In this document: positions 8,453 to 64,000 of the stretch, piece by piece
Layout: each line of letters begins with the position of its first letter
Position numbering within the stretch: position 1 is the first letter of the stretch
Source: Paracoccaceae bacterium
GTDB taxonomy: Bacteria; Pseudomonadota; Alphaproteobacteria; Rhodobacterales; Rhodobacteraceae
DNA: 64,000 bases
NCBI GenBank assembly: GCA_027489375.1
Contig: JAIXZW010000003.1
Span: 124,001 to 188,000, forward strand
Reading direction: 5' to 3'
Translations under genes and position numbers: made by a program
The notes under the pieces: generated by a model
Database searches by the model: none
What the model was told of the DNA's origin: nothing
The model's input: the letters and a program-made list of their open reading frames with translations, nothing else

Positions 8453-9280
8453 TCAACCTTTGGGCGGTTGGTCGCGGAGCGGGAGTTCGGCGGTATTCAG
8501 GGCGTCGGCCAATCTTTGGGCGGCGGAACCGGGGCGGAGCGGCTTTTGCTGGCTTTCGTGGGGTGCCCAGCCGGTGAGGCAGATGATCTCGAACGTTGCC
8601 GGAATGCGGCCATCGGGGCGGGTGTGGTGTTCGGCGTAAAGCGCTGCGGCGCGGGCAAAGACGGCGCGGCGGGTGGGGCGGCGGAGGCGGGCGTGCAGGG
8701 CGTTGCCTTCGCCCATCGCCCGCAGGTCGCGCATCAGCGCCAGTGCATCTGGGTAAGTGACTGTTTTCGTGAAGCTATCCGCCACGGGAAGGTTGAAGCC
8801 CGCCCGTTGCAGAAGGCCGCCAAGATCGCGGATTTCAGCCATCGGCAGGATGCGGGGGGAGAGGCCGCCCGTCACCTCGGCCTCGGCCTGGGCGAGGCAG
8901 GCGCGGAGTTCGTGCAAGGTCTGGCCGCCGAAGAGGAAACCGAGGAACAGGCCGTCGGGCCGCAGGGCGCGGCGGCATTGCACGAGTTGGCCGACCGGAT
9001 CGTTAGACCAGTGCATGCACAGGGCATGCACAACGAGGTCATACGAATCCGGCGAAAGGTGAAGAAAATCTTCATCTTCGACCGTTTGCGCGAAACCCGA
9101 CCAGAGCTGCGGAAAGGGTGTCACCACCACGGGGGCTGTAAAGGTTCTGTTAACCTCGGCCAGACGATCCTGCGTTTCGGCGGCGACCTCGTCTTGCAGG
9201 AACAGCGCGGGCGCACGCAGGGCGCGGGCGCGGTTGCGGGCAAGGGCGGGGCGGTCGGTCAGGATCGGCGGTGTCTGCAT
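8453..9280 (-). CDS. NDUFAF5/BioC-like methyltransferase-fold protein lacking a clear SAM motif I
   Basis: About 275 residues. The second half of a class I methyltransferase is evident: YDLVVHALCMHWSNDPVGQLVQCRRALRPDGLFLGFLFGGQTLHELR, typical of the NDUFAF5/malonyl-ACP methyltransferase-like family. The segment where the glycine-rich SAM loop (DLGxGxG) should sit is short and reads TFTAPVVVTPFPQLWSGF instead, with no such motif. It may therefore not bind SAM in the usual way. The start at 9280 (MQTPPIL) is chosen over 9292; neither has a good ribosome site. It diverges from comF with only 23 bp between starts. Confidence 0.75.
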   Translation of the reverse strand: MQTPPILTDRPALARNRARALRAPALFLQDEVAAETQDRLAEVNRTFTAPVVVTPFPQLWSGFAQTVEDEDFLHLSPDSYDLVVHALCMHWSNDPVGQLVQCRRALRPDGLFLGFLFGGQTLHELRACLAQAEAEVTGGLSPRILPMAEIRDLGGLLQRAGFNLPVADSFTKTVTYPDALALMRDLRAMGEGNALHARLRRPTRRAVFARAAALYAEHHTRPDGRIPATFEIICLTGWAPHESQQKPLRPGSAAQRLADALNTAELPLRDQPPKG

Positions 9281-63030: not shown

Positions 63031-63309
63031 ATGGCAAATACCGCCCAGTCCAAGAAGCGCGCCCGTCAGTCCGAAACGCGCTATGCGATCAACAAAGCCC
63101 GCCGTTCGCGCATCCGCACCTTCCTGCGCAAGGTCGAAGAAGCGCTTGCTTCGGGCGATGCCTCCGTTGCCGCCGAAGCCCTGAAGAACGCCCAGCCCGA
63201 ACTTCAGCGCGGCGTGTCGAAAGGCGTTCTCCATGCCAACACCGTGTCGCGCAAGATCTCGCGCCTTGCACACCGCGTGAAGACGCTGGCGACCGGCGCC
63301 AAGGCCTGA
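63031..63309 (+). CDS. rpsT: 30S ribosomal protein S20
   Basis: A 92-residue basic helical protein: [20 protein letters not shown], then [20 protein letters not shown] and [20 protein letters not shown]. This is unmistakable S20, which binds 16S rRNA early in small-subunit assembly. Codon use is C-ending and regular, as in highly expressed genes. It is followed by a strong terminator and then the dnaA region, a standard alphaproteobacterial neighbourhood. Confidence 0.98.
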
Positions 63310-63335
63310 TCTCCAAAGGTTTAACGATAGAATCG

Positions 63336-63371
63336 GGGCGCGTTCCGGCAGGAGCGCGCCCTTTTTCTTTT
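63336..63371 (+). terminator. Rho-independent terminator after rpsT
   Basis: A perfect 7-bp stem (GGGCGCG/CGCGCCC) with a 12-base loop is followed by TTTTTCTTTTT. It lies 26 bases after the rpsT stop. Confidence 0.88.
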
Positions 63372-63451
63372 TGCGACCGCTGTCCGTTTCGTGCCGGTGT
63401 GGCGCATTTTTGCATCGCTCTGCCGTGCATCTTCCAACGAGTCCGTGGCGG

Positions 63452-63460: not shown

Positions 63461-63542
63461 GCGGTTTGGATTCGGTTGCGGCAAGTTTCTGTCAAGCGCG
63501 AAGTTCGGTTGCGAACGCGTTCACGGGCTTGCTACCGTGACC

Positions 63543-63583
63543 CTGCGATTCACTTCGACTTGGGGGACATAACGGAATCGCAG
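63543..63583. promoter_or_regulatory. Perfect 9-bp inverted repeat with two GANTC sites upstream of dnaA
   Basis: CTGCGATTC and GAATCGCAG are exact inverted copies separated by 23 bases. Each arm ends in a GANTC sequence (GATTC, GAATC), the target of the CcrM cell-cycle methyltransferase in alphaproteobacteria. It lies about 360 bp before the dnaA ATG. A regulatory function is inferred. Confidence 0.5.
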
Positions 63584-63943
63584 ACTGGAATAGACGGGTC
63601 GGCTGTGCTGCCAAGCTTTGACGTGCCCTGAAAATTACGGTTTGCGGTCAATGCGTTATGGTGTCTGCACCGGTCTGTGCGACACTTTGCTTGATCTGGC
63701 GGAACGGCTTGGGGCCGATTCCGCCGGGGTCTGGAATGTCCGGCGTCCGTGCCGGATGGCGGTGCGTCTTGCTTGCCTTGGGGGAGGGCAAAGCGGGCGC
63801 TCGTTGTCCGGTGTGTTGCGTGTTGCGGGGAGTTTCCCGCTGCCTGATCCGAAGGGTTCTGGGGTGCGTGAGCGGTGCGAACAACAATAGGGGCGCAGGG
63901 GAAAACCCGCTTTCAAAGCGCCTTATCGGACGGGTCAGAAACG

Positions 63944-64000
63944 ATGACAAACGAGACTTGGGGATTGGTTCGTGAAGAACTGATCAAAAGGGTTGGACGG
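63944..64000 (+). CDS. dnaA: Chromosomal replication initiator DnaA, N-terminal fragment (cut by window end)
   Basis: Only 19 codons are present (MTNETWGLVREELIKRVGR), running off the window end in frame. The W-x-x-x-R-x-x-L-x-x-x-VG pattern is the start of DnaA domain I in Rhodobacterales, and rpsT immediately upstream is the usual neighbour. It is absent from the ORF track because of its length. DnaA opens the replication origin. The truncation is due to the window edge, not to a mutation. Confidence 0.82.
   Translation, partial: MTNETWGLVREELIKRVGR

Follow-up and report, generated by a model that had tools for sequence, protein, structure and literature searches.

The window analysed here is a stretch of 64,000 nucleotides (64 kb) that ends just inside dnaA. 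This gene begins on the forward strand at position 63944 (63944–64000 in the window), its translation matching NCBIfam TIGR00362 over cut-off, and runs past the window end. Its upstream neighbour on the same strand is rpsT (63031–63309), an ORF that encodes 30S ribosomal protein S20 and matches both NCBIfam TIGR00029 and Pfam PF01649 over cut-off. A terminator scan placed the intrinsic terminator of rpsT, with a 12-bp stem and a T run, at 63335–63372 (+), and the stem is present throughout the genus alignment. The gap between the end of rpsT at 63309 and the start of dnaA at 63944 measures 634 bp, and a homologous gap is found in all 19 genomes of the genus.

Within this gap, on the forward strand, the arms CTGCGATTC (63543–63551) and GAATCGCAG (63575–63583) form an inverted repeat of perfect 9-bp complements around a 23-bp loop. 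As described in an earlier note on this DNA, each arm carries a GANTC site (GATTC at 63547 and GAATC at 63575), and the additional sites listed there at 63330, 63469 and 63717 are all present; a sixth site in the gap, GAGTC at 63439, had been overlooked. With loops of at most 40, perfect 9-bp inverted repeats turn up 36 times in the window, so the repeat by itself is unremarkable, and it is the sole one of the 36 with GANTC in its arms. GANTC is depleted threefold across the 64-kb window (88 sites versus 268 expected). The gap holds six, versus 1.9 in dinucleotide shuffles, and only 8 of 1000 shuffles reach that number. Across the family, the 500 bp upstream of dnaA contain 278 GANTC sites against 138.5 expected, a twofold excess. 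The corresponding region in 16 loci from other alphaproteobacterial families, whose start codons were placed only approximately, shows no such excess (25 versus 24.8).

The two halves of the inverted repeat are unequally conserved. In the 19-genome genus alignment the left arm and the loop are almost invariant (GCGATTCAC, TGGGGGACA), and TGCGATTCAC within the left arm forms part of a family-wide core. The right arm is variable: GAATC is kept in 8 of 19 congeners, is replaced by GGATC, GGGTC, CGGTC or GGTTC in others, and the sequence is unrelated in three. To avoid selection by the conserved block itself, 80 named loci were gathered by DnaA protein similarity alone; these are Rhodobacteraceae loci from Rhodobacter, Tabrizicola, Gemmobacter, Cereibacter, Rhodovulum, Actibacterium and others. 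All 80 carry a single-copy block, which includes the left arm, between rpsT and dnaA.

A first, sequence-only model of the block, built from the genus, matched 220 of the 298 genera of the family, which was taken as Rhodobacteraceae from named relatives. There was one copy per genome, and the fetched loci lay between rpsT and dnaA. For a second model, 37 block sequences from the genus and the family were used; it matched 80/80 loci, in every case upstream of dnaA. Among 385 genomes of the class, searched with filters that lose weak matches, the second model had no matches beyond the window's genome and four others from its family; these sequence searches gave no hit to the block in other alphaproteobacterial families. 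No description of this Rhodobacteraceae dnaA promoter block was found in the open-licence papers searched or in Rfam.

The 80-locus alignment gives a defined order of elements. In its upstream part, [G/A]GATTCG is followed by GTCAA, 21–23 bases after the start of GATTC, and then by GAAG.TC.GTTGC. Downstream of 20 variable bases lie TAnnnT, a short gap, GCGA[T/G]TCAC, approximately TCGT, and CTTGGGGGACA. The invariant GTCAA...G.T..GTTGC element runs into TTGCGA (63509–63514, +), the predicted −35, in which TTG is conserved in 80/80 loci and TTGC in 78/80. The predicted −10 is TACCGT (63533–63538, +; family consensus TAGC[T/G]T, mostly TAGCGT or TAGCTT), with TA in 80/80 and the final T in 79/80. 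The spacer of 18 bp after TTGCNN varies freely in sequence and has no indel (TTGC-N20-TAnnnT); none of the 80 loci has an indel in the stretch that starts with GTCAA and closes with the −10.

With TTG, TA and the closing T nearly fixed and the spacer between them free to vary, the block has the signature of a sigma-70-type promoter: −35 and −10 hexamers at fixed spacing and the TAnnnT pattern expected of this class. That it forms part of the Rhodobacteraceae dnaA promoter is well supported by the alignment. Directly upstream of the −35, at predicted positions −54 to −37, lies the activator-like element GTCAAGCGCGAAGTTCGG (63491–63508, +), with GTCAA in 80/80 loci. The predicted transcription start, placed from the −10/−35 spacing only, is near 63545 (+), which would make the repeat's left arm the first transcribed bases. 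Promoter activity at this position is likewise predicted from sequence; a generic consensus promoter scan did not call the promoter at 63509–63538, and no mapped dnaA transcription start was found in the open-licence papers searched. A regulon sharing this promoter was considered and rejected, as the pattern occurs once in the genome, even when two mismatches are allowed.

The predicted leader to dnaA is approximately 400 nt long in the window and 252–513 nt (median 330 nt) in the family. At approximately +15 to +26 it would contain an initially transcribed element, CTTGGGGGACAT (63559–63570, +), with a near-invariant GGGG in the family; the exact copy of TTGGGGGACAT in this element is the only one in the genome. 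The family-conserved CTTGGGGGACAT is not a conserved context for a start codon, nor does it form a covarying hairpin. Two more leader segments conserved in the genus, GCTGCCAAGC and GGTT[A/G]TGGTGTCTGC, lie in window positions 63610–63690.

A divergent minus-strand promoter (TTGAC...GAATC) was considered and rejected, as its −10 does not follow the TAnnnT consensus in the 80-locus alignment. For control by CtrA, no TTAA-N7-TTAA with up to one mismatch is present in the rpsT–dnaA gap. Such CtrA-type sequences with one mismatch occur elsewhere in the window at 9139, 27538, 28453, 36529, 50398 and 50424, six versus approximately one expected, and none is at dnaA.

Two CcrM-type sites flank the predicted promoter. 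The upstream site, GATTC followed by G (63469–63473), lies at predicted positions −76 to −72 and is GATTC in 80/80 loci amid variable flanks. The downstream site, GATTC (63547–63551), lies inside the left arm at approximately +3 to +7 and is GA[T/G]TC in 79/80. GANTC is thus conserved at orthologous positions, as a pair of CcrM sites requires. The distance between the two is 77–80 bp in all 80 loci, and 63469/63547 is the window's only GANTC pair at that distance. At the downstream site, N has changed from T to G approximately three times on the DnaA tree, T has changed once, and G and A never. A varying N with G and A kept is the pattern expected of a methylation site, in numbers that are small. 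The N of the upstream site is T in 80/80 loci; because it never varies, more than GANTC is conserved there, and a protein probably reads this site as GATTCG. As a separate observation, GTCAA has become GAGTCAA in 25 of the 80 family loci (alignment columns 26–32), through approximately seven changes on the DnaA tree, so that a third GANTC precedes the −35.

The genome encodes both proteins that such sites would call for. The CcrM orthologue has N6_N4_Mtase and RAMA domains (G000:C17:212662-213327), and its best NCBIfam match is NF050803 CcrM at 642 bits, under that model's cut-off of 830. Its gene lies outside the window, on the same contig, approximately 25 kb downstream of dnaA. GcrA is identified by PF07750 (159.9 bits versus a cut-off of 26.9). 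Caulobacter GcrA is reported to activate methylated YGAKTCK sites located up- or downstream of promoters (PMC7987155). Neither site here matches the full Caulobacter consensus, each agreeing at 6/7 positions: the upstream site has R in place of Y (R-GATTC-G), and the downstream site, C-GA[T/G]TC, is mostly followed by A in place of the last K.

The block therefore invites comparison with promoters linked to CcrM and GcrA, which it resembles; any dependence on methylation or GcrA is putative. Like the GcrA/CcrM-dependent sigma-70 promoters ctrA P1, ftsN, mipZ and ftsZ, it has GANTC near a sigma-70-type promoter with 6/7 YGAKTCK positions. Unlike them, it fails one consensus position per site, and its sites lie at approximately −76 and +3 rather than between the −10 and −35. 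With the Caulobacter crescentus dnaA promoter and leader it shares GANTC at the promoter, a genome that encodes CcrM and GcrA, and a long untranslated leader, which is predicted here and is 155 nt in Caulobacter (PMC4489657). In contrast with Caulobacter, two sites bracket the Rhodobacteraceae promoter at 77–80 bp, the region between −10 and −35 that reportedly holds the Caulobacter RRF motif is variable, and the block model matches nothing outside its own family among the 385 class genomes.

Taken together, the block is probably a sigma-70-type dnaA promoter specific to the family, in which an activator-type element is combined with two flanking CcrM-type sites; replication-linked methylation may influence its transcription. 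In the proposed mechanism, the promoter (−35 TTGC at 63509, −10 TACCGT at 63533, start near 63545) would follow the GTCAA...G.T..G activator-type element, with the two GATTC sites at approximately −76 and +3 on either side. Because dnaA is reported to lie near ori in Rhodobacterales (PMC8116508), both sites would become hemimethylated early in replication and would stay so for long, up to the action of CcrM late in the cell cycle. GcrA together with sigma-70 RNA polymerase would probably read this methylation state, and the rate of dnaA transcription would change accordingly; we infer the methylation, the binding of GcrA and the direction of the effect.

A more specific version of this mechanism is put forward tentatively. 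Here the GATTC sites at approximately −76 and +3, held 77–80 bp apart family-wide, would be read together as a methylation gate, and passage of the fork would reset dnaA transcription once per cycle. Reading could use, for example, GcrA bound to sigma-70 polymerase and linked to the putative GTCAA-binding factor.

The focus accordingly moves from the palindrome to a conserved dnaA promoter that bears on the timing of replication initiation in Rhodobacteraceae, several of which are without parts of the Caulobacter cell-cycle circuit (PMC2877005). With its two position-fixed CcrM-type sites, the promoter is a candidate for coupling replication-fork passage to initiator synthesis, and the finding points to a putative activator-type element, GTCAA, upstream of the dnaA −35.

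The main rival accepts the same conserved promoter and holds that an activator or RNA polymerase reads both GATTC motifs as ordinary sequence, methylation being incidental. This is possible, if on balance somewhat unlikely. At the upstream site, GATTC(G) is fixed including its N, which exceeds the needs of CcrM, and since the downstream site sits in a conserved stretch, the initially transcribed region, its conservation need not concern methylation. The precedent in Caulobacter is also less settled than the earlier note had assumed in tying GANTC methylation at the dnaA promoter to replication. Transcription of Caulobacter dnaA has been described as methylation-responsive (PMC3973325), but mutation of the putative methylation site reportedly caused no significant change in promoter activity (PMC3885167), and loss of CcrM is reported to leave steady-state DnaA levels unchanged (PMC3667746). 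What stands of that proposal is the pair of family-conserved sites at 63469 and 63547, at a predicted promoter, in a genome encoding CcrM and GcrA. Against the plain-sequence reading, the N of the downstream site varies between T and G while GA.TC is kept, and GANTC, otherwise depleted in the window, is enriched only upstream of dnaA.

The earlier note had instead suggested the inverted repeat as the functional object, acting on dnaA as a methylation-sensitive operator or as an RNA hairpin, and this now appears very unlikely. The arms are perfect in the window, 84.8% of the cells for the nine arm pairs are paired in the 19 congeners, and the observed register beats slid registers. Complementarity also exceeds the length expected by chance, an excess confined to part of the close clade plus some near relatives. 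Nevertheless, arm covariation in the 19 congeners is at approximately the level of shuffles, and shuffling the right side leaves the folding energy over 71 family loci no worse (mean z +0.24). The window's own repeat folds with a z of only −0.88, and RNAalifold found no supported structure in the start region. Conservation in relatives, the check that had been proposed for the repeat, went against it: the right arm decays already within the genus, and none of the 80 family loci picked by DnaA protein alone has the perfect repeat. A palindromic operator or hairpin requires both arms to be conserved or covarying, and neither pattern appears in these alignments. Such a role is not supported beyond the close clade. 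The palindrome itself is ordinary; it is a local lineage quirk, a by-product of a conserved left site and a lineage-specific right sequence.

It is highly improbable that the block belongs to a replication origin in the interval from rpsT to dnaA. Strongly conserved non-coding DNA with clustered methylation sites beside dnaA would fit an origin, but DnaA boxes are not in excess (5 versus 8 in shuffles over the 80 loci), and none with fewer than two mismatches lies in the rpsT–dnaA gap. The sequence presents neither a DnaA box cluster nor an A+T-rich unwinding stretch, and its rigid spacing is promoter-like. Equally hard to credit is a leader peptide beginning at GGGGGACATG, or a structured leader RNA with a GCGA/UCGY mini-hairpin: ATG often follows GGGGGAC and 92% of cells are paired in the four-pair mini-hairpin, but the ATG is not conserved (T in 45/73), indels break the frame in the genus, the mini-hairpin shows no compensatory change, and the block has no Rfam match above the gathering threshold.

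One database entry drew attention during these comparisons. CP059262.1, titled Exiguobacterium profundum isolate SSD5, contains a Rhodobacteraceae dnaA locus in which the block is complete, and its organism name looks wrong.
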